Assembly (NCBI GenBank): GCA_000333815.1
Contig: CAPI01000040.1
Location: 1 to 32,076, forward strand
Length of the DNA stretch: 32,076 bases
Direction: 5' to 3'
Source of the DNA: [Collinsella] massiliensis
GTDB taxonomy: Bacteria; Actinomycetota; Coriobacteriia; Coriobacteriales; Coriobacteriaceae
In this document: positions 2,427 to 20,937 of the stretch, one piece after another
Position numbering within the stretch: the first letter of the stretch is position 1
Layout: every line of letters starts with the position of its first letter
Position numbers and translations under genes: made by a program
The notes under the pieces: generated by a model
What the model was told of the DNA's origin: nothing
Seen by the model: the letters and a program-made list of their open reading frames with translations, nothing else
Databases searched by the model: none

Positions 2427-2629
2427 TTTCATTCTAGGCGTGCGTGCCTGCCGCGCCCCCGATTTTCCGTCAGCGGAATGAAAAAATTTCAAACACAACG
2501 CTTACCGATATATTCCCGCCGTTGAGCACCGCATTATTACCGTTCGCGGATTGAAAAAACAGCAGGTGCGTACCGCCCCGGTATCATCGGAAATGAAAGA
2601 AATGTCGATATGGAATGAAAGAAATTTCA
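2427..2629. promoter_or_regulatory. Divergent control region with candidate LacI-family operators
   Basis: Two inverted repeats share the pattern GGAATGAAA..TTTCA: TGAAAAAATTTCA at 2479-2491 and TGAAAGAAATTTCA at 2616-2629. A third partial copy, TGAAAGAAATG, starts at 2594, exactly 22 bp before the second, which is about two helical turns. A fourth AATGAAAG half-site lies on the minus strand at about 2427-2434, next to a possible -10 (TAGAAT on the minus strand, 2431-2436) for the regulator gene. The 2616-2629 site overlaps the proposed -35 of the operon. This layout fits a repressor that controls both its own gene and the operon. The assignment to this LacI protein is inferred. Confidence 0.5.
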
Positions 2630-2656
2630 CACCAGTATCGAGCCTCGGGGTATATT
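2626..2656 (+). promoter_or_regulatory. Candidate promoter of the sugar operon
   Basis: TTCACA at 2626-2631 and TATATT at 2651-2656 resemble a sigma-70 promoter, although the 19-bp spacer is longer than usual. Transcription would start near 2663, leaving a leader of about 80 bases before the first gene. The candidate operator at 2616-2629 overlaps the -35 element. Confidence 0.4.
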
Positions 2657-2745
2657 CGGCGCCCGCTCGTTGATTCAACGACGTCCGGGCGCTTCGAGGA
2701 AGCGGAAGCATGCGGACATGCGCCGCATCGGCGGAAGGGAGCACC

Positions 2746-3780
2746 ATGGTTCGCGTCGGCGTCATCGGATGCGGAAAGATCTCGCAGGTACGGCATCTCC
2801 CGGAGTACGAGGCGAACCCTCATGCGCAGATCGTCGCCCTCTACGACGTGAACCTCGAGCGCGCCCGCGAGCTGGCCGAGCGCTACGGCGCCACGGCGTA
2901 CGAGACGCTCGACGAGCTCCTCGCCGCGCCGGACATCGACGCCGTGAGCGTCTGCACGTCGAACGCCACGCACGCCGAGACCACCATCAAGGCGCTCCAG
3001 GCGGGCAAGCACGTGCTCTGCGAGAAGCCCATGGCCATCACGCTCGAGGAATGCGAGCAGATGGTCGCCGCCGCGGACGGCGCGGGCAAGCAGCTCATGA
3101 TCGACCAGAACCAGCGTTTCGCGAAGGCGCACATCCGCGCCAAGGAGCTCCTCGACGCCGGGCGCATCGGCCGGGTGCTCACGTTCCGCACCACCTTCGG
3201 CCACGGCGGCCCGGAGACCTGGAGCGTCGACCCGGGCACCGGTAGCTGGTTCTTCGACCCCAAGCGCGCGGCGATGGGCGCCATGGCGGACCTGGGCGTG
3301 CACAAGACCGACCTCATCCAGTGGCTCATCGGCCAGACGGTCGTTTCCACCACGGCGCACGTCACCACGCTCGACAAGCGCGACCCGGAGGGCAACCTCG
3401 TGGGCGTGGACGACAACGCCGTCTGCATCTACCGGATGAGCGGCGGCGCGGTGGGAACCATGACCGCGAGCTGGACGTACTACGGCCCGGAGGACAACTC
3501 CACCGTCATCTACGGCACCGAGGGCGTCATGCGCATCTACGACGACCCGGCGCATTCCATCGTCATCGACCGCCGCGACGGCGAGCGCGAGCTCTACGAC
3601 GTGGAGGCCATCCAGACGAATGACAACCAGACCGCCTCGGGCATCATCGACGCCTTCGTCGCCTGCCTCGAGGACGGCACCGAGTCTGCGATCCCCGCGT
3701 CGAGCGTGCTGCCCGCCATGCGCGCCGTGTTCGCGAGCATCGAGTCGAGCAAGACCGGTAAGACCATCGAGATCGGCTAG
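2746..3780 (+). CDS. Gfo/Idh/MocA-family NAD(P)-dependent oxidoreductase
   Basis: This 344-residue cytoplasmic dehydrogenase belongs to the family that includes inositol 2-dehydrogenase and glucose-fructose oxidoreductase. The N-terminal Rossmann fold opens with GVIGCGKIS (residues 5-13). The hallmark EKP lies at 93-95, where the lysine is catalytic, and the second hallmark DLGVHKTDL (182-190) carries the catalytic His186. A C-terminal alpha/beta substrate domain completes it. The start is set at the ATG of 2746 because GGAAGGGAG lies just upstream; an in-frame ATG at 2710 has no ribosome site and adds residues unlike the family. It is first in the operon, followed 57 bp later by a TIM-barrel isomerase, which suggests oxidation of a sugar or cyclitol followed by isomerisation or dehydration. 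The substrate cannot be read from the sequence. Confidence 0.88.
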   Translation: MVRVGVIGCGKISQVRHLPEYEANPHAQIVALYDVNLERARELAERYGATAYETLDELLAAPDIDAVSVCTSNATHAETTIKALQAGKHVLCEKPMAITLEECEQMVAAADGAGKQLMIDQNQRFAKAHIRAKELLDAGRIGRVLTFRTTFGHGGPETWSVDPGTGSWFFDPKRAAMGAMADLGVHKTDLIQWLIGQTVVSTTAHVTTLDKRDPEGNLVGVDDNAVCIYRMSGGAVGTMTASWTYYGPEDNSTVIYGTEGVMRIYDDPAHSIVIDRRDGERELYDVEAIQTNDNQTASGIIDAFVACLEDGTESAIPASSVLPAMRAVFASIESSKTGKTIEIG

Positions 3781-9119: not shown

Positions 9120-9148
9120 TTTACAGACCTTGCAATGCGGATTAGAGT
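9120..9148 (+). promoter_or_regulatory. Promoter of the giant adhesin gene
   Basis: TTTACA (9120-9125), a 17-bp spacer and TAGAGT (9143-9148) make a good sigma-70-like promoter. Transcription would start near 9155, giving a leader of about 90 bases. Confidence 0.6.
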
Positions 9149-9152
9149 AGGC

Positions 9153-9185
9153 ATGTCTATCCTCATGTAGCGTAGGGATAGATAT
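9153..9185 (+). promoter_or_regulatory. 5'-end hairpin of the adhesin transcript
   Basis: TCTATCC (9156-9162) pairs with GGATAGA (9176-9182), and flanking A-T and G-T pairs extend the stem. It begins almost exactly at the predicted transcription start. A stem at the extreme 5' end can protect a long mRNA from decay. It also covers an upstream in-frame ATG at 9184, which argues against that start. Confidence 0.45.
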
Positions 9186-9243
9186 GCGCAAATGCAGCGT
9201 AATGGTAGTTCGCGTGTCGGTAAGGGATGGGAAGGTTATGTTG

Positions 9244-12200
9244 ATGGCAGGAACCCACAAGAAACCCCGCGGGGGGGGGCGCTCTAGGGCGATAGTGGCT
9301 GCAGCCCTCGCAGCCGTGCTGTTCGTCGTGGTGTCGGTGGCGTCGTTCATAGGCGTCGCGCGAGCCGCGGGCGTCACGGGCAAGACGGTGGTCGACCCGG
9401 ATACGACGAATAGCTGGACGCAGTACACGCGTCCCGATGATCAGCCGTCAACGCAGAACGTCGGTCGCATCTGGACCGACAAGAGCGTGTTCGATGACAC
9501 GTACACGTTCAAGAACGACGACAACGAAGGTCTGAGCGGGCAGTCCATCACGAAGGGCGACTCCGACTTTATCGTGAGCCTTTCGGCGCTGTCCTCGACG
9601 TCCAACCTCAAGTCGACGACGGTTTCGACGAAGCCGCTCGACATCGTGCTGGTGCTGGACGTGTCCGGGTCGATGTCCCAAAGCATGGGCACGACCTACA
9701 CCTATACCGAGGCCTATCCGAGCAACCATCGCGGAACCTATTACGTCAAGGTGGATGGAGCCTGGCAGCAGGTTGAGTATTTCGAGCCGGGTCGGTGGGA
9801 TTCTGATCCGGAAGGCTGGCGGTACCGCAGCGGCGGAAGCGGTTGGAATCCGCAATATACCTACGTAGAGCCGAAGACCTCGCCTGCGGACAACGATCCC
9901 GATCACATTCAGTTCTACTCGCGCGGGCACGGTCAGAACATCAGCAAGATTGATGCGCTGCAGAACGCGGCGGACGCATTTGTTGATTCCGTCGCCGAAA
10001 TGAACGATGGCATCACAGATCCCAATAATCAGCACCGCATCTCGCTGGTGAAGTTCGCCAGCGGTAGCCGTGACAACATCGGCAACAACAAAGATGGGGA
10101 CGGATACAACAATTCCCAGGTCGTGTCTGACCTTGCGCCATACACGACCGATAACGCTGCAACGCTCAAAAATACCATCGATAGGCTTGAGCCGGCTGGC
10201 TCTACCTATGCGAACTACGGTATGAGTCATGCGAAGCGTGTGTTGGATGGCGGAGAGGGACTGACCGGCGCCCGCGCCAACGCGCAGAAGGTCGTTATCT
10301 TCTTCACTGATGGTGAACCCGGATATAGCGAATGGAGCGGTTCCGTTGCCGCCGAAGCTATTAACTATGCATACGACATGAAACAAGACGGCACGCTGAT
10401 TTATAGTATCGGCGTGTTCCAGGATGCCGATCCGAGCGACACGAGCGGCAATTTCAACAAATACATGAACGCTGTTTCGAGCAACTATAGAGATGCTCAG
10501 TGCGCGGAGAATACTTCGTGGTTCCCTTGGGATGAGCCGAACTACGAGCAGACAGATGACTTTGGTGATCTCATGCTTGGCGACCGTACGACGGGTGCCC
10601 AGGGTGAGCCGAATCCCGATTACTACTTCGCTGCGACAGATTCCGAACAGCTCGATCAGGTCTTCGAGGACATCACGTCCTCCATCACCGAGAACGTTGG
10701 TTCTGGTTCGCCGATCGTTGACAACTCCCTCGAGGGCAACCTCGCCCCGGGTAATCTCACCTTCACCGATCAGCTCGGCTCCTACATGCAGGTGACGGGC
10801 ACCGGCGTCGGTAAAGACCAGATTCAGCTTGCCTATGGCGACGAGATCTATACAAGTGACAGCAAAGAGACGAACGGCAACGTCGACACCTATCACTTCA
10901 CCGGTACGGTTGACGGCAACGCTGTGTACGGTTCGGCGAATCTTGCCGACCTTACGGTGACGGTTACCCGCAGCGATGACCTTGCCACGGGCGACACCAT
11001 CACCGTTACCCTTCCTGCATCCCTTATCCCGCTGCGCAACTACAACGTTGATACCGACACCGGTGACATGACGGTGTCCCAGGCATATCCTGTGCGTCTG
11101 TTCTACGGCGTGAGCCTGAAGGCTGAGGCCAAGGAGGCGCTTAACAAACCGTCGAGCGACGAGTACGCGGCTATCGTGGCTTCCCAGAAGTCCGCGGATG
11201 GCAAGACCATCGACTTCTATTCCAACAACTTCACGGCCGGCGCAGCCGACGGTCTCACGACGGCGACCTTCGAGCCCAACGCGGGCAACAAGTTCTACTA
11301 CTACACGCAGAACACCACGCTCTACGTCGACGAGGGCTGCAACACCGAGGCGACTCAGTGGAACATCGGTAATTACAACACCCTCTACTGGAAGGACACC
11401 TACTGGGTGCAGACCAGCGAGGGCACGGGCGAGGAGCGCTCCACGGGCGTCGCCATTCAGCGCGGCACCGCTGAGTGGAACGCGATGCAGAAAGAGGATG
11501 GTTGGGACGGTGCCTACTACATTCCCGCCGGTACCCAGCGCACCGACCGTCCCGCAACGCTGACCGACGGGAAGGACTCGAACGAAACGAAGACCGCGGC
11601 CAACGTGCTCAACCCGTCGTGGAGCGACACCGACGAGGTCACCCAGGCGCTCGGCAACAACGGCAAGCTCTACTACGAGATGCCCGGTTCGCTCGAGATC
11701 AAGAAGACGGTCGACTGGGGCAACGCGTCCGACGAGACCAAGCAGAATACGGAAAAGAACACGTTCACGTTCGAAATCACGGCAAGCGTGCCTTCCGATG
11801 AGGAGGGTAAGACCGAGCCGCTTTCCGGCACCTATAACTACTACGTCGGTGACAAGGCTGACGGCAATGTGACGTTCAACGAAGGCAAGGCGACGCTGGA
11901 GGTTAAGGGCGGCACGACGGTTCGCATCGACAGCCTGCCCGTTGGCACCGAGTTCACGGTGACCGAGAAGGGCGTCGGCGACAACGGCTGGACTGTGAAG
12001 GATGCCACGGCGCAGGATGGCGTTCAGAACGACAACACCACCGACGGCATCGTGACCGGTACCATCGAGTCCGCTACGCAGGTCTCCCTGACGTTCGACA
12101 ACGTGTATCGCGCCGCCGACGTGAACCTCAGCACGAACACCACACTCAGCGTGGAGAAGGTGCTCAAGGGCCGCGACTGGCGCGACAGCGACGAGTTCAC

Positions 12201-15200
12201 GTTTGATATCGATGGGCTGGGCAATACGGCCGGGAACGGTATTACCACGCCCGAACCTGCCGACACAACCATCACGGTGAACAGCCAGACCGAGGATTAC
12301 AAGGCTTCCTTCGGAGACATCACGTTCACCGCACCCGGCGAGTATCGCTACAACATCACTGAGGACAACGACACCGATCCGATCAACGGCATCGACTACT
12401 CCGCGGCGATTTACCGCGTGGTGGTCACGGTGACCGATGACGGTAACGGTAAGCTCGTGGTCTCCAAGGTCGAGCTGCAGCAGACCCAGAACGATGAGGG
12501 CACGATGGGGGCCGGCGCCGACCCGGTGCCGGTTGAGGGCAGCACCGCCACGTTCACGAATACGTATGACGTGAACTCCGCTCCCACCAACATCGACGGC
12601 ACGAAGGTCTACAACGACACTACGGGCGGCAACGGCATCGACTACGGTAAGTTCACCTTCCAGCTCGAGGCGCTTGGTGGCTACGAGACCAAGGGCGGTA
12701 GCTCCGTGAACTACACGGTTGACGCAACAGACGTCCCGATGCCCGCGGACGTTGCCGAGGGAACCACGACCAAGCAGGTGACCAACACCGGCCATGACTT
12801 CACCTTCGGTACCATCAACTATGACGGCAACGATGTTGGCAAGACCTTCGAGTACAAGGTGACCGAGATCGCCGGCGACGAGCAGGGCATGACCTACGAC
12901 AAAACCGAGCGCATCGTTCAGGTGGAGGTCGAGGAGGTCACTACGGGCGAGGGGACTCCCGAGGAGGAGACCCATCTGGTCGCCACCGTGCTGTCTCCGT
13001 ATGACACGCCTGCCGGCCTCGCGTTCAACAACGAGTACGACCCGGCCGACGCCGAGCTCAAGGGCGATACCGCCATCCACGGCACCAAGACCCTTACCGG
13101 TCGCGAGATGCATGACGACGAGACGTTCTACTTCCAGCTGACGGCGACGAACGATAACGCGAAGAGCATTCTGCCCGATGCGGAGGTCGTCCAGGTTACC
13201 AAGGCCGACATGCAGGGCGGATCTGCTGACTTCTTCTTCAAGGACATGGCGTTCGCCAAGACGGGCGAGTACACGTTCACCGTGGACGAGGTCGCGTCTG
13301 ACGGTCAGGGTGACTACATCGAGACCGCCAACGGTGCCGGCATGACCTACGACACCAACATCTGCACCGTGACGGTCAACGTGACGGACAGCCACGATGG
13401 AACGCTCCAGGCTAAGGTTACCTATCGCAATGACAAGCACGCAGGCGAGATCGAAGGCGCGTACTTCAAGAACACCTACGAGGCGTCCATGGACTACGGC
13501 GCCGAGGGCAAGGGCGGCATCAAGGTGACCAAGCAGCTCACCAACCGCCCGATGGATGCTGACGAGTTCGCGTTCTCCATTACGGGCGTGGCAAATGACA
13601 GCGGAAAGACCACTGCCGATGATGCCAACGAGAAGCTGACTGAGGTCGATACGAGCTTTAAGAACACGGCGGCTGCATCCGGTCAGACCATCACCATGGA
13701 CAAGCTCCAGGGCGTGACCTTCGACGAGACCGATGCGGGCAAGACCTACAGCTACATCGTGGACGAGGTCACCGAGAGCGGCGCCCCGCAGGTGACCTAT
13801 GACCAGACCCAGTATCGCGTGGACATCGAGGTCGTGGACAACGGCAACGGCACCATGCACACGCTCACCACGGTGACGAAGATCCAGAACGCCCAGGGCG
13901 AGCCCGCGGACGAAGTCATCGTTGACAAGGCGGACTCCGATGCCGACGGCTACACCGCGCCGACCTTCGGCTTCGTCAACGAATACAACCCGACGCCTGC
14001 CACGGTGGGAGAGGACGCCGATTATCAGATCCAGGTGACCAAGTATGTTGAGGGCGCGGATTCCGCGACCGACTACACCTTCACGCTCAAGCTCGCTGAC
14101 AGCAGCACTGGCATGGCAGGTTACGTGAAGGGTCTGGGTCCGGACGGCACGATGACTGTCAACACGACGGACACCATCAAGGCCGGTGAGTCCCAGAGGC
14201 TCACGTTCGGCGATTTGGCCTTCACCAAGCCGGGCACCTACACCTTCACGGTGCAGGAGAACGCGCCTGACGCGGATGCAGGCTGGGCGTTTGACACGAG
14301 CGAGCGCACGGTGACCGTTGAGGTAACCGATCGCAACGCCGAGGGTAAGTACGACGGCAAGCTCTACATCGCCAAGGTGGATGGCAGCCCGGTTGAGATT
14401 ACTAACCGCTATGCGGCCGATCCGGTGGTCGTGGGCGGCGAGGACGCCGAGCAGCAGATCACGGTTCGAAAGACCGTGACGGGCGCTGCCTCCACCACGG
14501 ACTTCCAGTTCAAGATCGAGCCGGTCGACAAGGACGACGAGAAGTGGGACAACGTCAAGGCTGTTGAGAGTGACTTCGACGGCCAGACCTCCATCACCGA
14601 GGACTTCGCTGACGGCGACACCAAGACGGCCGCCTTCGGCGCCATCAAGTTCAGCGCCACGGGCGAGTACCAGTTCAAGATCACCGAGGTTGGCGCAGCT
14701 GACTTCAACGATGGCGTCAATCGTAATGGTTGGACCTACGACGAGCACGCGGCATTCGTGACCGTCACGGTGACCGACAACGGCGAGGGCCAGCTCGTCG
14801 CTAAGCTGACCTACGACAACGACGGCGCGAACACCGATACCGACAAGCAGGTGGAAGACGCTGCCGCGTTCACCAACGCTTACACGACGACGCCTGTCGA
14901 GCTGACCCAGGATGCCGAGTCGGGCATCGGTGTTCAGAAGAAGGTCGAGGGCGCGCCGAACTCGGCGAACTTCACCTTCAGCGCGACCTTCAATGCCGAC
15001 GCGAGTGCGGAGAAGGCCGCCGCGGCCGACATGGCCGCGGGCAAAGCCGCCGGTATTGAGGGCCTGACCGAGGGCAAGCTCTCCGTGACCATCAAGGACG
15101 ACTTTGAGGCTGGTGACACCAAGGCCGCCGACTTCGGCACGATCAAGCTCACCAAGCCGGGCGTGTACGTGTTCGACGTGACGGAGGACAACGCCAAGGT

Positions 15201-18200
15201 CGAGGAGCCCAACGGCTGGACCTACGACAAGACAACCCACCAGATCACGGTGACGGTCACCGACAACGGCAAGGGTCAGCTCGAGGCTACGGTTGACGGC
15301 AACGACCCGCTGTTCACCAACAGCTACCATGCCCATAGCGTGACGCTGCGCGGCGAGGATCAGCTCAAGGTGACCAAGGAGGTCACGGGCGCGCCCGCGC
15401 TCTCCGACTTCGAGTTCACCCTGACGCTCATCGAAGGCGATGCAACTGCTGTGACGGGCATCGACGAGCATGGCATCACCAAATCCACCTCTGGCCTGAA
15501 AGACAAGACGGGCGACGAGGCGAAGCAGACCGTCGAGTTCGGCGAGCTGACCTTCACGAAGGCTGGCACCTATACATTCCAGGTTGTCGAGAACACCACG
15601 ACGGATGCCGCTGGCTGGACCTATGCTTCTGGCGACGATAACGCCCAGACCATCACGGTCACGGTGACGGACGATCAGGTCAGCGGTCAGCTTGAGGCCA
15701 CTACCGAGCTGGATGGCGAGGAAACCAACAACCCGACCTTCACCAACAGCTACAAGGCTGGTTCCATCACCACGGGCACCGACAATGGCATCAACGTCCA
15801 GAAGACGCTGACCGGCCGTGATTGGCTGGAGGGCGACAGCTTCGAGTTCGTCCTCGAGGCGGTTGATGGCGCCCCCATGCCCGAGGGCGACGGCAACAAG
15901 GTGACCATCACCGATAAGAGCGATCCCAAGACCGCAGTGTTCAGTGGCATCACCTATGAGGCTGCTGGCGATTACAAGTACACGGTCACGGAGACCAAGG
16001 GGACTTTGGGCGGCGTGACCTACGACGAACACGTGACGAACGTGACGGTGACCATCGCCGACGATGATTACGATGGTTCCTTCGAGGTCAAGTCGGTCGT
16101 GTACGACAACTCCGATGCCGCTACCGATGCCGACCAGGCTGTGGACAACGCTGCCGCGTTCACCAACGTATACAAGGCGTCTGGCTCGCTCGACGGCGAT
16201 GCCGACGGCAACCTCACCGTGACCAAGAGCTACACGAGCAACCTGGGCGACCCCTGGACGCCGGACGATAGCTTCGGCTTCACGCTCGCGGCTGACACCA
16301 CGGACGAGCCGACGAAGCAGGCCGTTGATAACGGCTGGATCGCTCTGCCCGAGAACGCGGGCAAGGCCGATGAGCCTGGCATCACGGTAACCGCCGAGAG
16401 CAAGAACCATCAGGCTTCCTTCGGTGACATCATCTTCACGCACGCGGGCACGTTCAAGTTCACCGTGCGCGAGGTGCTGCCCGAGGGTGTGAGCACCGAC
16501 AACCCGACCAAGGACGGCATCACCTACGACACGTCCGTCAAGACCGTGACGGTCAACGTGAACGATAACGGCGACGGCACCCTGACGGCCACGGTGGCAG
16601 AGGGCAGCGATGCGCTGACCTTCGACAACACCTACAACGTGCAGCCCGTCATGTTCCGTGCGGCGCACTTCGCGCTGCAGGGCAACAAGGTGCTCGACGG
16701 CCGCACCTGGGAGCAGGGTGACGCCTTCACCTTCACCATGACGGCTGGCCGCGGCACCAACCCTGACGGCGAAACGCAGATGGATCCCGGCGTGGTCGAG
16801 GCGACCATGCCCGAAAAGACCACCGATACCATCGAGCCGCTGGCGGATGGTTCCAAGGTGACCGACAACTCCGCTCAGTTCACCTTCACCGACGAGCGTT
16901 ACCCCGGCGGCGACGTGGCGCCCGATGCGAAGGACGTGTTCACGTTTACGCAGCCCGGTACCTATCGCTACCTCATCGCCGAGACCAACCCCAACGCTTC
17001 GAACCCCGGCTCGGGCATCCTGGGCGTGACCTACGACCAGACGCAGTACCGCCTGACCGTGGTCGTTGAGGACGATGGCAACGGCAACCTCGAGGTGACG
17101 AGCAGCAAGTTCTCGTCGCGCCCGACCGCGGGCTCCGGCGAGTGGTCTGACATCGCCGGCGACCAGGGCATCACGTTCACCAACAAGTACTCGGCGAACG
17201 AGGTGGGCGTTTCGTTCAACGCCGCCAAGGTGCTGACCGGCCGCGACACCGCCATGTCCGACAACGAGTTCATGTTCCACATGACGTTTGCCGGCTGGAT
17301 GTCGAACGACGACTTCGACGCCCAGTCCGAGGATTGGAAGATGGACGGCGAGGTTGCCGAGAAGGCTCCTGCGGCCGCGCCCGACAAGGGCAACATCATT
17401 CGCGGCGACGTGATCTTCGACAACGTGACGTTCACGAGCGATAACGTGGGCTACACCTATCGCTACGCTATCACCGAGGTGATTCCGGACGACGCGACGA
17501 ACGCCGCGTATCCGGACGTGACCTACGGCACGGCTTCGGCCGAGCAGAAGGCCGGCACCGGCTGGACGAAGAACGGCGTGACCTATGACGGTTCCACCAA
17601 GTACGTGACCGCCAAGGTGACGAGCGAGCAGACCCAGGATCAGCAGAACCCCGGCACCTTCATCGAGGTCGTGCGTGTGGCCACGGGCGGTGAGGCTCCG
17701 TACAACGAGCAGACCGGCACGTTCGAAGGCAACGCCATCTTCACCAACACCTACGATGCGGGTTCGACGGATGTCGACACCGGCACCGCCGACGTGCAGC
17801 TCACCAAGGTGCTCACGGGCAAGGCGTGGGACGGCGACAGCTTCACCTTCAAGATCGAGGCCGTTTCCAACACGGCCGGCATCGAGCTTGACCAGCAGCC
17901 CATGCCCGCCCAGACCGAGGTGACGGTCAACGCGGCCACCGGTGAGGACGCCGAGGGCAACGACCAGGCGACCTTCTCGTTCGGGAAGATCTCCTACGAC
18001 ACGCCGGGCACCTATGTATATAAGGTGGCCGAGGTCGCGGGTGATAACCCGGGCATCACGTATTCCACGAACGAGGCCACCATCACGGTGACGGTCGAGG
18101 ACAACAACGCGGGCGGCTACACCACCGGCGTGACGGTTGCCAATAACGTGTTCACCAACCAGTACGCGAGCGAGCTCGACTTCGCGGCGGCCGGTGGCAT

Positions 18201-20460
18201 CGAGATCGCCAAGATCTTCGAGAACGCCGACATGCGCGAGTTCAGCTTCACGGTGAAGCCGGCCGACCAGGCGTCTGCCGACAAGCTCGGCATCGACATG
18301 GACGGCGAGACCTTCACCACGAAGGCGGGTGCCACGGTCGATGACGACAACGCGTCGCACGCCGAGGTCATGATGATCGACGCTGCGACCGAGGCCAAGT
18401 TCACGCAGGACGATGCCGACGACACCTACACCTACACGGTGCAGGAGGTCAAGGGCGCGGATGCCGGCGTCGACTACGACGGCACGGTCTACACCGTGAC
18501 CATCACCACGGCTGACGACGGCCACGGCGGCATCAAGGTGACCACCACGGTGACCGACGGCGCGGACTACACCCAGACCTACGTCTACGACAACGACGAG
18601 AACGAGGACCCGACCGCGGTGATCCCGTTCACCAACACCTACAAGGCGACGGGTGAGCTGGGCGGCAACGGCTCCGCGAGCATCAAGGCCACCAAGACGC
18701 TCACCAACCGCCCGATGGTCGACGGCGAGTTCACCTTCAACGTGACGAACGCTGCCGATCAGAGCGACACGGTGGTTGCCACCGGCACCAACGCCGCGGA
18801 CGGAACCATCACGTTCAGCGCCATCAACTACAGCATCGACCAGATGATGAAGGACGTGGACAACAACCTGGCGACGCCGAGCCTCGTGAACGGCAAGAAC
18901 ACCTTCACCTACACCTATGACGTGACCGAGGACACCACCAACCTGGATGAGGGCGTTGCAGCGACCGATGCCGCGGGCTTCCAGATCACCGTCACGGTGA
19001 CCGACAACGGCGACGGCACGCTCGGGATCGTCGTGGGCTACCCGCAGGGTTCCGAGAACGGCCTCACGTTCCGCAACACTTACGGCGAGGGTCAGACGGG
19101 CCAGCAGACCATCGCCATCGCCGGTGCGAAGCAGCTCAAGGTCGAGTCCGGCAACAACGCGCCCGACATCGCGGGCAAGTACACCTTCACGCTGACCGGC
19201 GAGGACGGCGCGCCGATGCCCGCCACCACCACGGCGACCAACGACGCCTCGGGCAACGTGAGCTTCGGTGACATCACCTTCACCATGGAGAACGTCTTCG
19301 GCGACACGGGCAGCCAGACCGCTGCGGCGACCGCCGAGGCCGAGGGCGAGGGCACCGAGGACGCGCCCGCCGTCGAGTCCGCGCAGCGCACCAAGACCTT
19401 CACCTACACGGTGGCGGAGACGGGTGAGGTCGCGGGCGTGGCGAACGACGCCGAGACCGGCAAGACCTTCACGGTCACGGTGACCGACAACGGCGACGGT
19501 ACGCTCTCCGCGGTGGCCGATCCGGCGCAGGGTGCGCTCTTCACCTTCACGAACACCTACTCCGTCGACCCGCAGACCTCGTCGCCCACGGCTGACGGCG
19601 GCCTGACCCTCACCAAGGAGCTCACCGGCCGCACGATGGACGAGGGCGAGTTCCAGGTGGTCATGGTGGACAAGGACGGCACGCAGGTCTCGCAGGGCGT
19701 GAACGATGCCAACGGCAGCATCGCGCTCGACGCGATCACCTTCACCGCGCCTGGTGACTACACCTACACCTTCTACGAGGTCGATGGCCACAAGGGCGGC
19801 GTGACGTACGACGCGGCACGCTACACCGCGACGGCGTACGTGAAGGACGAGGGCGACGGCACGCTGTCCGTCACCTGGGAGTTCGCGGACGCCAACGGCG
19901 ACCCCGTGACTGACGTGGTCATTAGCAACAGCTACGAGGCACGGGACGCGTCGATCTACGTCGGCGGGTCGAAGGTGCTCGACGGCCGCGCGCTCGCCGA
20001 GGGTGAGTTCTCCTTCGAGCTGCGCGACGCCGACGGTAACGTGCTGCAGACCGTGAAGAACGCGGCGGACGGCGGCTTCGTCTTCGACGCCATGACCTTC
20101 GACACGGCCGGCGAGTACCAGTTCACCGTGGCCGAGGCGCTGCCCGAGGATGACGACCCGGCGACCGCCGGCGTCCAGAAGGACGGCGTGACCTACGACG
20201 AGACCGTCTACACCGTGGACGTGACCGTCGAGGACAACCGCGAGGGCTACCTCTGGGTGACGAGCCTCACCTACAACGGCAAGGCCGAGCTGCCGGTGTT
20301 CTCGAACACCTACGTTGAGCCGGTTGCCCCGGCGGGCCCGAGTGACGACGGCCTGATCCAGACGAGCGACATGATGCCGACCGCCGTGATGGCCGCAGCG
20401 GGCATCGGCGCCGTGTGCGTCGCGGCCGGCGTGGTGACGCGCAAGAAGCGGGGTGAGTAG
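9244..20460 (+). CDS. Giant vWA/FctA-repeat pilin-like surface adhesin
   Basis: This protein of about 3,738 residues (roughly 400 kDa) is predicted to be exported and wall-anchored. In order it has: a basic n-region and hydrophobic signal peptide ending near VARA (about residues 1-40); a vWA domain with MIDAS residues DVSGS (Asp139), Thr321 and Asp356; a linker; a CnaB-like module (about 815-955); 18 FctA/Spy0128-like pilin isopeptide repeats (about 956-3690); then LIQTS, a hydrophobic helix and RKKRGE. Each repeat has the Lys, Glu and Asn expected to form an internal isopeptide bond. The start is set at ATG 9244 because GGGAAGG ends 8 bases upstream. In-frame ATGs at 9238 and 9184 are alternatives. 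The vWA part is visibly less GC-rich than the repeats. A winged-helix gene follows after 3 bases. No sortase gene is in the window. The ligand is unknown; a role in adhesion is inferred from the domain plan. Confidence 0.9.
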   Translation: MAGTHKKPRGGGRSRAIVAAALAAVLFVVVSVASFIGVARAAGVTGKTVVDPDTTNSWTQYTRPDDQPSTQNVGRIWTDKSVFDDTYTFKNDDNEGLSGQSITKGDSDFIVSLSALSSTSNLKSTTVSTKPLDIVLVLDVSGSMSQSMGTTYTYTEAYPSNHRGTYYVKVDGAWQQVEYFEPGRWDSDPEGWRYRSGGSGWNPQYTYVEPKTSPADNDPDHIQFYSRGHGQNISKIDALQNAADAFVDSVAEMNDGITDPNNQHRISLVKFASGSRDNIGNNKDGDGYNNSQVVSDLAPYTTDNAATLKNTIDRLEPAGSTYANYGMSHAKRVLDGGEGLTGARANAQKVVIFFTDGEPGYSEWSGSVAAEAINYAYDMKQDGTLIYSIGVFQDADPSDTSGNFNKYMNAVSSNYRDAQCAENTSWFPWDEPNYEQTDDFGDLMLGDRTTGAQGEPNPDYYFAATDSEQLDQVFEDITSSITENVGSGSPIVDNSLEGNLAPGNLTFTDQLGSYMQVTGTGVGKDQIQLAYGDEIYTSDSKETNGNVDTYHFTGTVDGNAVYGSANLADLTVTVTRSDDLATGDTITVTLPASLIPLRNYNVDTDTGDMTVSQAYPVRLFYGVSLKAEAKEALNKPSSDEYAAIVASQKSADGKTIDFYSNNFTAGAADGLTTATFEPNAGNKFYYYTQNTTLYVDEGCNTEATQWNIGNYNTLYWKDTYWVQTSEGTGEERSTGVAIQRGTAEWNAMQKEDGWDGAYYIPAGTQRTDRPATLTDGKDSNETKTAANVLNPSWSDTDEVTQALGNNGKLYYEMPGSLEIKKTVDWGNASDETKQNTEKNTFTFEITASVPSDEEGKTEPLSGTYNYYVGDKADGNVTFNEGKATLEVKGGTTVRIDSLPVGTEFTVTEKGVGDNGWTVKDATAQDGVQNDNTTDGIVTGTIESATQVSLTFDNVYRAADVNLSTNTTLSVEKVLKGRDWRDSDEFTFDIDGLGNTAGNGITTPEPADTTITVNSQTEDYKASFGDITFTAPGEYRYNITEDNDTDPINGIDYSAAIYRVVVTVTDDGNGKLVVSKVELQQTQNDEGTMGAGADPVPVEGSTATFTNTYDVNSAPTNIDGTKVYNDTTGGNGIDYGKFTFQLEALGGYETKGGSSVNYTVDATDVPMPADVAEGTTTKQVTNTGHDFTFGTINYDGNDVGKTFEYKVTEIAGDEQGMTYDKTERIVQVEVEEVTTGEGTPEEETHLVATVLSPYDTPAGLAFNNEYDPADAELKGDTAIHGTKTLTGREMHDDETFYFQLTATNDNAKSILPDAEVVQVTKADMQGGSADFFFKDMAFAKTGEYTFTVDEVASDGQGDYIETANGAGMTYDTNICTVTVNVTDSHDGTLQAKVTYRNDKHAGEIEGAYFKNTYEASMDYGAEGKGGIKVTKQLTNRPMDADEFAFSITGVANDSGKTTADDANEKLTEVDTSFKNTAAASGQTITMDKLQGVTFDETDAGKTYSYIVDEVTESGAPQVTYDQTQYRVDIEVVDNGNGTMHTLTTVTKIQNAQGEPADEVIVDKADSDADGYTAPTFGFVNEYNPTPATVGEDADYQIQVTKYVEGADSATDYTFTLKLADSSTGMAGYVKGLGPDGTMTVNTTDTIKAGESQRLTFGDLAFTKPGTYTFTVQENAPDADAGWAFDTSERTVTVEVTDRNAEGKYDGKLYIAKVDGSPVEITNRYAADPVVVGGEDAEQQITVRKTVTGAASTTDFQFKIEPVDKDDEKWDNVKAVESDFDGQTSITEDFADGDTKTAAFGAIKFSATGEYQFKITEVGAADFNDGVNRNGWTYDEHAAFVTVTVTDNGEGQLVAKLTYDNDGANTDTDKQVEDAAAFTNAYTTTPVELTQDAESGIGVQKKVEGAPNSANFTFSATFNADASAEKAAAADMAAGKAAGIEGLTEGKLSVTIKDDFEAGDTKAADFGTIKLTKPGVYVFDVTEDNAKVEEPNGWTYDKTTHQITVTVTDNGKGQLEATVDGNDPLFTNSYHAHSVTLRGEDQLKVTKEVTGAPALSDFEFTLTLIEGDATAVTGIDEHGITKSTSGLKDKTGDEAKQTVEFGELTFTKAGTYTFQVVENTTTDAAGWTYASGDDNAQTITVTVTDDQVSGQLEATTELDGEETNNPTFTNSYKAGSITTGTDNGINVQKTLTGRDWLEGDSFEFVLEAVDGAPMPEGDGNKVTITDKSDPKTAVFSGITYEAAGDYKYTVTETKGTLGGVTYDEHVTNVTVTIADDDYDGSFEVKSVVYDNSDAATDADQAVDNAAAFTNVYKASGSLDGDADGNLTVTKSYTSNLGDPWTPDDSFGFTLAADTTDEPTKQAVDNGWIALPENAGKADEPGITVTAESKNHQASFGDIIFTHAGTFKFTVREVLPEGVSTDNPTKDGITYDTSVKTVTVNVNDNGDGTLTATVAEGSDALTFDNTYNVQPVMFRAAHFALQGNKVLDGRTWEQGDAFTFTMTAGRGTNPDGETQMDPGVVEATMPEKTTDTIEPLADGSKVTDNSAQFTFTDERYPGGDVAPDAKDVFTFTQPGTYRYLIAETNPNASNPGSGILGVTYDQTQYRLTVVVEDDGNGNLEVTSSKFSSRPTAGSGEWSDIAGDQGITFTNKYSANEVGVSFNAAKVLTGRDTAMSDNEFMFHMTFAGWMSNDDFDAQSEDWKMDGEVAEKAPAAAPDKGNIIRGDVIFDNVTFTSDNVGYTYRYAITEVIPDDATNAAYPDVTYGTASAEQKAGTGWTKNGVTYDGSTKYVTAKVTSEQTQDQQNPGTFIEVVRVATGGEAPYNEQTGTFEGNAIFTNTYDAGSTDVDTGTADVQLTKVLTGKAWDGDSFTFKIEAVSNTAGIELDQQPMPAQTEVTVNAATGEDAEGNDQATFSFGKISYDTPGTYVYKVAEVAGDNPGITYSTNEATITVTVEDNNAGGYTTGVTVANNVFTNQYASELDFAAAGGIEIAKIFENADMREFSFTVKPADQASADKLGIDMDGETFTTKAGATVDDDNASHAEVMMIDAATEAKFTQDDADDTYTYTVQEVKGADAGVDYDGTVYTVTITTADDGHGGIKVTTTVTDGADYTQTYVYDNDENEDPTAVIPFTNTYKATGELGGNGSASIKATKTLTNRPMVDGEFTFNVTNAADQSDTVVATGTNAADGTITFSAINYSIDQMMKDVDNNLATPSLVNGKNTFTYTYDVTEDTTNLDEGVAATDAAGFQITVTVTDNGDGTLGIVVGYPQGSENGLTFRNTYGEGQTGQQTIAIAGAKQLKVESGNNAPDIAGKYTFTLTGEDGAPMPATTTATNDASGNVSFGDITFTMENVFGDTGSQTAAATAEAEGEGTEDAPAVESAQRTKTFTYTVAETGEVAGVANDAETGKTFTVTVTDNGDGTLSAVADPAQGALFTFTNTYSVDPQTSSPTADGGLTLTKELTGRTMDEGEFQVVMVDKDGTQVSQGVNDANGSIALDAITFTAPGDYTYTFYEVDGHKGGVTYDAARYTATAYVKDEGDGTLSVTWEFADANGDPVTDVVISNSYEARDASIYVGGSKVLDGRALAEGEFSFELRDADGNVLQTVKNAADGGFVFDAMTFDTAGEYQFTVAEALPEDDDPATAGVQKDGVTYDETVYTVDVTVEDNREGYLWVTSLTYNGKAELPVFSNTYVEPVAPAGPSDDGLIQTSDMMPTAVMAAAGIGAVCVAAGVVTRKKRGE
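11686..20313 (+). repeat. Tandem isopeptide pilin modules R1-R19 inside the adhesin gene
   Basis: Nineteen protein modules end with a F/I-x-N-x-Y strand. R1 (11686-12108) is CnaB-like. R2-R19 are FctA-type, with last-tyrosine codons ending at 12567, 13038, 13479, 13986, 14412, 14883, 15327, 15753, 16173, 16635, 17190, 17754, 18165, 18642, 19083, 19560, 19935 and 20313. Units are about 125-188 residues long, and the two last are the shortest. Each starts with a Lys strand (for example VTKxLTGR), has a central TYxFTVxE strand carrying Glu, then GVTYD, then TVTVTDNGDGTL, and ends with FTNTY carrying Asn. The repeats are diverged at DNA level, so this is an old array and not recent slippage. Confidence 0.88.
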
Positions 20461-20463
20461 CGC

Positions 20464-20793
20464 ATGTCCGAGGCCGGGATGGGGACCTCGCTGAGGGGCA
20501 TCAGCACGCGCATCAACGGGCGCCATGCCTTCGTGCACGAGCGCGTGCTGGAGCTCATCGCGCGGGAGACCAAGCGCGCGGGCGAGGTGCGGTTCAGCCA
20601 AGCCGAGCTCGCCAAGCGGATGGGCTGCTGCTCGCAGTCGCTCGCCCGCGCCGTCACGCGCCTGCGGCGCGAGGGCTTGATCACCTCCACCCCGGTCTAT
20701 AGCGAGTCGGGCGCGCAGCTGGGCAACAGCTACAAAGCGACGCCCGCCGGGATCGAGCGCGCCGAGGTGCTCGCGCACAGTCGGCGGGGCTAG
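20464..20793 (+). CDS. Small winged-helix DNA-binding protein coupled to the adhesin gene
   Basis: This 109-residue protein has a central winged helix-turn-helix (about residues 40-75; FSQAELAKRMGCCSQSLARA then VTRLRREGLI). This is the recognition unit seen in Crp/Fnr C-terminal domains and replication-initiator-like regulators. The N-terminal half (about 1-38) is basic and helical, and no sensor domain is present. The ATG lies 3 bases after the adhesin stop, and the GGGGTGAG that could serve as its ribosome site lies in the last adhesin codons, so translation is probably coupled. A strong terminator closes the pair. It may regulate the adhesin or another locus. The exact family cannot be named from the sequence. 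Confidence 0.75.
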   Translation: MSEAGMGTSLRGISTRINGRHAFVHERVLELIARETKRAGEVRFSQAELAKRMGCCSQSLARAVTRLRREGLITSTPVYSESGAQLGNSYKATPAGIERAEVLAHSRRG

Positions 20794-20799
20794 ACAATG

Positions 20800-20837
20800 A
20801 GGCCTCCTTTCGGGATCGTCCGGAAGGAGGCCTTTTT
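20800..20837 (+). terminator. Rho-independent terminator of the adhesin-regulator unit
   Basis: AGGCCTCCTT (20800-20809) pairs perfectly with AAGGAGGCCT (20824-20833) and is followed by TTTTT. It starts 7 bases after the stop codon of the small regulator. Confidence 0.93.
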
Positions 20838-20897
20838 GCGTTGGCGGGGTGGCACGGCGCGGTGGTTGCGCGGGCCGCGCGGGTTGGCGGGCGCAAA

Positions 20898-20937
20898 ACT
20901 GAATAATTTGCACTCATAGCAATCAATTACTGAATAA
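20898..20937 (+). promoter_or_regulatory. ACTGAATAA direct repeats upstream of carA
   Basis: ACTGAATAA occurs at 20898-20906 and 20929-20937, 31 bp apart (three helical turns), in an unusually AT-rich patch just upstream of the carA promoter. TGAATAA resembles half of the arginine-repressor box (TGAATA-AT-rich-ATTCA), and carAB is a known ArgR target in other bacteria. The second halves are poor, so this is only a candidate. Confidence 0.3.

Follow-up and report, generated by a model that had tools for sequence, protein, structure and literature searches.

We found that the window, by which we mean the whole 32,076-nucleotide stretch of [Collinsella] massiliensis DNA analysed here, encodes a 3,738-aa stalk protein that is very probably a sortase-anchored fibrillar adhesin working as a one-piece pilus, with about 19 isopeptide bonds predicted from its sequence and from structural models. 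The gene was delimited by ORF translation, profile matches and a ribosome-binding sequence: it is a single open frame of 3,738 codons plus stop at 9244–20460 on the forward strand, and GGAAGG lies 8 nt upstream of the ATG at 9244. From the N to the C terminus, the product comprises a signal peptide (9244–9369, forward strand; read from the translation as a basic start, a hydrophobic core and VARA/AG), a vWA head, one DUF7601/DUF5979 module, 18 FctA modules and a sortase-type tail. Searching Pfam with hmmscan yielded FctA at 990 bits over 19 stretches, together with matches to DUF7601/DUF5979 and VWA, and the NCBIfam model TIGR03786, “streptococcal pilin isopeptide linkage domain”, matched the protein 17 times.

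We cut the stalk into 19 modules and aligned modules 2–19 to a module profile, supplemented by a structural model for modules 13–15. Along the forward strand, the FctA modules and their candidate isopeptide residues are module 2 (12112–12570; K972, E1040, N1106), module 3 (12574–13041; K1121, E1208, N1263), module 4 (13039–13482; K1282, E1349, N1410), module 5 (13483–13989; K1430, E1508, N1579), module 6 (13993–14412; K1600, E1672, N1721), module 7 (14434–14886; K1743, E1815, N1878), module 8 (14890–15330; K1899, E1981, N2026), module 9 (15331–15756; K2045, E2116, N2168), module 10 (15757–16176; K2187, E2250, N2308), module 11 (16177–16638; K2328, E2410, N2462), module 12 (16651–17193; K2482, E2580, N2647), module 13 (17197–17757; K2662, E2745, N2835), module 14 (17770–18165; K2855, E2930, N2972), module 15 (18169–18645; K2990, E3068, N3131), module 16 (18646–19083; K3151, E3229, N3278), module 17 (19096–19563; K3296, E3392, N3437), module 18 (19567–19938; K3458, E3512, N3562) and module 19 (19942–20313; K3577, E3631, N3688). 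Against PF12892 (FctA), these modules scored 34.8–86.5 bits, compared with a curated cut-off of 22.1. Lys, Glu and Asn occupied the columns of the Spy0128 isopeptide triad in all 18, and the profile alignment thereby bore out the claim of an earlier note on this DNA that modules R2–R19 are FctA modules each carrying the triad. Pairwise identity among the 18 averaged only 28.6% (maximum 41.7%), yet the triad filled three of the five columns that were invariant across them, indicating that its retention is not due to chance; with five invariant columns among 97 full ones, three columns specified beforehand would all be invariant with a probability of 10/147,440.

The same pattern extended to relatives. 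When the profile built from the 18 FctA modules was run over the long ORFs of relatives, 288 FctA modules were collected from 28 related proteins, and the triad columns were the sole substitution-free ones (Lys 277/277, Glu 286/286, Asn 270/270), the next-best column being 95.7% conserved. These counts come from a profile that was seeded on triad-bearing modules and favours such modules at alignment ends; in 29 of the 288 modules, one or two triad columns fell outside the local alignment, and many of those show the residue just past its edge. The modules might instead be ordinary folded spacers in which some or most triads are relics, so that bonds form in part of the stalk only, and DUF11-type domain families do include members that lack the bond (PMC12617251). 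However, relics would drift, whereas none of the 277, 286 and 270 aligned cells is substituted and all other columns vary, which makes this explanation improbable.

Structure prediction, a check proposed in the earlier note, was run on modules 13–15 and on module 1, and placed the triads on the expected strands. For modules 13–15, a set that includes the two FctA modules scoring lowest against Pfam, AlphaFold2 was given 69 aligned non-overlapping module triples and returned a model with a pLDDT of 83.8, covering three of the 18 FctA modules (module 1 was modelled with the head). In each of the three, Lys lies on the first strand, Glu on a central strand and Asn on the last strand (K11, E94, N184; K204, E279, N321; and K339, E417, N480 in model numbering). 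The best PDB matches to this model by Foldseek were the FctA pilins 8f70, 3b2m, 6bbt and PitB, and also FctB, although multi-domain superpositions had high rmsd and the fit was tight only for a single domain (FctB, TMt 0.62–0.68). The sequence profile recovered the same solved pilins, with Lys, Glu and Asn aligning onto the triad of Spy0128 (3b2m).

The head contains a vWA domain at approximately 9625–10563 (forward strand), identified by Pfam VWA, an alignment of 26 heads and fold matches. Its metal ion-dependent adhesion site (MIDAS) residues, D139, S141, S143, T321 and D356, were invariant in 26/26 heads, whereas only some relatives have the variable insertion that follows the first MIDAS loop. 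The proposal that a vWA domain sits at the distal end of the stalk was thus upheld, and the conserved site suggests that the head is a putative metal-dependent binding domain. Next follows a beta-rich region without a Pfam name (approximately 10741–11613, forward strand), conserved in relatives and containing strands in the model. By sequence, PitA, Cpa, GBS104 and RrgA are among the nearest solved relatives of the head; by fold, PitA, SpaC and Cpa are among them. The model of the head had a pLDDT of 83.1 and was poor at head residues 379–394 and 439–456. Module 1 (R1; 11677–12111, forward strand) carries a triad equivalent to that of FctA, K821/E908/N953, according to Pfam, the head alignment and the model, in which these residues (K777/E864/N909 in head numbering) lie on strands in the same order as the FctA triads. 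The earlier note saw the triad apparently in R1 as well; the residues are present, but we rejected R1 as an FctA module, as Pfam assigns it to DUF7601/DUF5979. DUF5979 is an isopeptide family with a solved structure (4BUG), and DUF7601 is also listed among families with predicted or proven bonds (PMC12617251). Because its sequence and fold match PitA, SpaC, Cpa and FctA pilins, we regard the protein as a tip-pilin-like head joined to shaft-pilin-like modules.

We propose that the protein is secreted through Sec, as its signal peptide suggests, and that the 18 FctA modules and the DUF7601 module would each fold as a CnaB-type sandwich. The triad, the fold and homology to Spy0128 point to one Lys–Asn isopeptide bond per module, which would join the first strand to the last with the assistance of Glu. 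The chain would then hold about 19 bonds, each accompanied by a loss of 17 Da; this number, put forward in the earlier note, is supported as a prediction by the 18 FctA triads and the R1 triad. Once its C-terminal tail had been attached to the cell wall by sortase, the stalk would be stiff, resist protease and force, and hold the metal-dependent vWA head off the cell. From 4–5 nm per module, we estimate a stalk length of ~0.1 micrometre, which would be set by module number and would vary between species mainly in mid-stalk.

The tail bears a sortase-type C-terminal signal (20353–20457, forward strand), visible in the translation as LIQTSD, a hydrophobic stretch and RKKRGE, and relatives have similar signals at the same place. 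The protein combines a signal peptide, a distal adhesion domain, a repetitive stalk and a sortase signal. LIQTSD is an LPxTG variant, and its departure from LPxTG counts against the anchored-fibre reading, as does the location of the only sortase found. Equivalent tails read LEQTGD in a paralogue and LPVTGD, IPATGD and LVETSD in relatives. TS replaces TG both in LIQTSD (window 20353–20370) and in LVETSD (tails of L024 and L036). The genome encodes several sortase-tailed proteins as against a single sortase match.

The only sortase found lies on another contig (G000:C117; L018, L068), adjoining pilin-like genes, in a genome that is 99.65% complete. This arrangement, together with the similarity of the head to pilus tip proteins, would suit a different role, in which the giant does not stand alone but is the tip or base component of a sortase-built pilus, joined to it by a class C-type sortase. 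Profile searches of the neighbouring ORFs tested, however, gave no sortase or pilin match, so that the class C sortase and further pilin genes expected beside a sortase-polymerised pilin were not seen among them; the pilin-motif lysine used in polymerisation is not a reliable sequence marker in FctA domains. Moreover, the protein already has a long stalk of its own, and a housekeeping sortase may be missing from the draft, as relatives show 0–5 sortase matches each. We therefore consider membership of such a pilus unlikely. As for the idea of a pre-assembled fibre that dispenses with polymerisation, the tip-like head and shaft-like modules fit it, with pilus membership remaining as the rival reading, and in functional terms the protein can fairly be called a “pre-assembled single-chain pilus”.

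Since the source genome is a draft in 135 contigs, we considered whether the stalk gene could be an assembly artefact in which tandem modules of several genes were fused into one contig. It is one open frame, its modules share no long exact repeats, and independent genomes keep the module order: modules 2–7 correspond to positions 1–6 of most relatives and modules 14–19 to the last positions of several, while the middle is variable. Given the lack of long exact repeats and the colinear genes of relatives, mis-assembly is extremely unlikely. A minus-strand open frame of 3,821 aa lies opposite the stalk gene (window 9448–20913), and we rejected it as a gene. Its openness is explained by codon usage, as TTA, CTA and TCA together account for one of 3,739 codons of the stalk gene (GC3 0.85).

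Similar giants are widespread in the family. The same genome encodes a second one on contig C135, with 17 profile-detected modules and a head 42% identical to that of the stalk protein. FctA was present in 28 of 40 relatives, with frames reaching 4,844 aa and 24 modules, and of 67 family genomes, 31 encoded the head; the relatives that are named are uncultured Collinsella and Atopobiaceae. Family relatives have the same head, DUF7601 module, FctA stalk and sortase tail, with 11–24 FctA modules in those that share the head. A sample of 296 genomes from across the phylum yielded FctA at E < 1e-10 in 14, all of them Coriobacteriales. Matches between species at the same position often reached 45–80% identity and mostly exceeded those within the stalk protein, indicating that the ordered array of modules is ancient and did not arise by tandem duplication in recent times. 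Exchange is suggested by modules 8 and 9, which share 80% identity with modules 7 and 8 of a protein from a different genus. Near-identical head segments (L015 and L016) also occur on a contig labelled Collinsella and on one labelled Atopobiaceae, suggestive of either transfer or a binning error.

The stalk gene is flanked by further conserved elements, on which the earlier note was silent. Upstream, a 5′ leader (9144–9240, forward strand), defined by stalk-gene comparison, a consensus fold and a covariance model, contains the hairpins CTATCC..GGGATAG and then ATGCGC..GCGTGT, with TATGCGCAAA between them, and ends at the ribosome-binding region. It is common to the stalk genes of several genera, with TRTGCGCAAA (L109–L120). 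The consensus fold has 15 pairs, of which two were changed on both sides, so covariation supports it weakly. The covariance model gave 12 matches in 10 genomes, 11 of them at E < 1e-5, and those 11 include matches from outside the training set (at the C135 paralogue and in G005 and G079). Wherever the following gene was read, the match preceded a stalk gene, in one case a relic in G008 (contig C15; L089, ~2440–3400), in which the leader, signal peptide, tail and regulator gene were kept and the stalk was deleted. An Rfam search with the leader gave nothing near a gathering score. In L009 and L024, the palindrome GTAAACTATAGTTTAC stands immediately upstream of the leader.

Downstream, 3 nt after the stalk stop, lies a 109-aa small winged-helix regulator gene (20464–20793, forward strand; Pfam HTH_Crp_2/MarR-like). 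All four copies in this genome are directly behind sortase-tailed genes (in the window and at L009 19265, L073 2855 and L074 8234), as are 24 of 33 copies in relatives (among L077–L108), a count obtained by inspecting the C terminus of each upstream frame by eye. Comparable layouts are known in Gram-negative bacteria, where MrpJ/PapX regulators stand at the ends of fimbrial operons. The two-hairpin leader, the variable-length cross-linked stalk and a cognate winged-helix regulator may form a conserved family cassette, in which the stalk, or a switch between surface programmes, would be under the control of the regulator; judged from sequence, we give this interpretation an even chance. The leader may act as a DNA operator or as RNA. 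The leader and the linked regulator make the control of giant stalk proteins testable.

If the one-piece pilus reading is right, gut Coriobacteriales would encode pilus-like fibres in one gene, as a tip-like head plus up to 24 shaft-like domains. They would offer a natural length series in which the effect of module number on reach and force resistance could be tested, and their diverse FctA domains would be a stock for protein-ligation tools.

Finally, we compared the stalk protein with known systems. Like the streptococcal FctA/T-antigen pilins (Spy0128, 3b2m; PitB, 7w7i), it is built on the FctA domain with aligned Lys, Glu and Asn; those pilins, however, contain between one and a few domains and are linked into polymers by a sortase, whereas here 18 FctA modules are in one chain. 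With the tip adhesins PitA (7w6b) and SpaC (6m48), which match its head best in fold and sequence, it shares a vWA head followed by beta domains, but these tip proteins are added onto a separate shaft, while the Collinsella head is fused to its own. The earlier note had measured the protein against known pilins with one to a few such domains, which is the wrong comparison, because cross-linked single-chain giants are known and FctA giants are common in the family. The giant adhesin of Mobiluncus mulieris is a single chain of 7,651 aa and 51 domains, and likewise consists of one polypeptide with a distal adhesion domain and dozens of internally cross-linked Ig-like domains (PMC10619420). Its head is of the thioester type and its domains are of the ester or isopeptide type, in contrast to the vWA head and almost pure FctA stalk of the Collinsella protein. 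A published survey covers long surface proteins with tandem isopeptide domains, but its structure source ends at 1,280 aa and would not capture proteins this large (PMC12617251); our search of the open-access literature gave no publication on FctA giants from Coriobacteria. Among the Coriobacteriales FctA giants themselves, the architecture is the same and module number differs. Many-domain cross-linked single-chain giants are thus already known, and the FctA/vWA version in Coriobacteria is a variant of that class.
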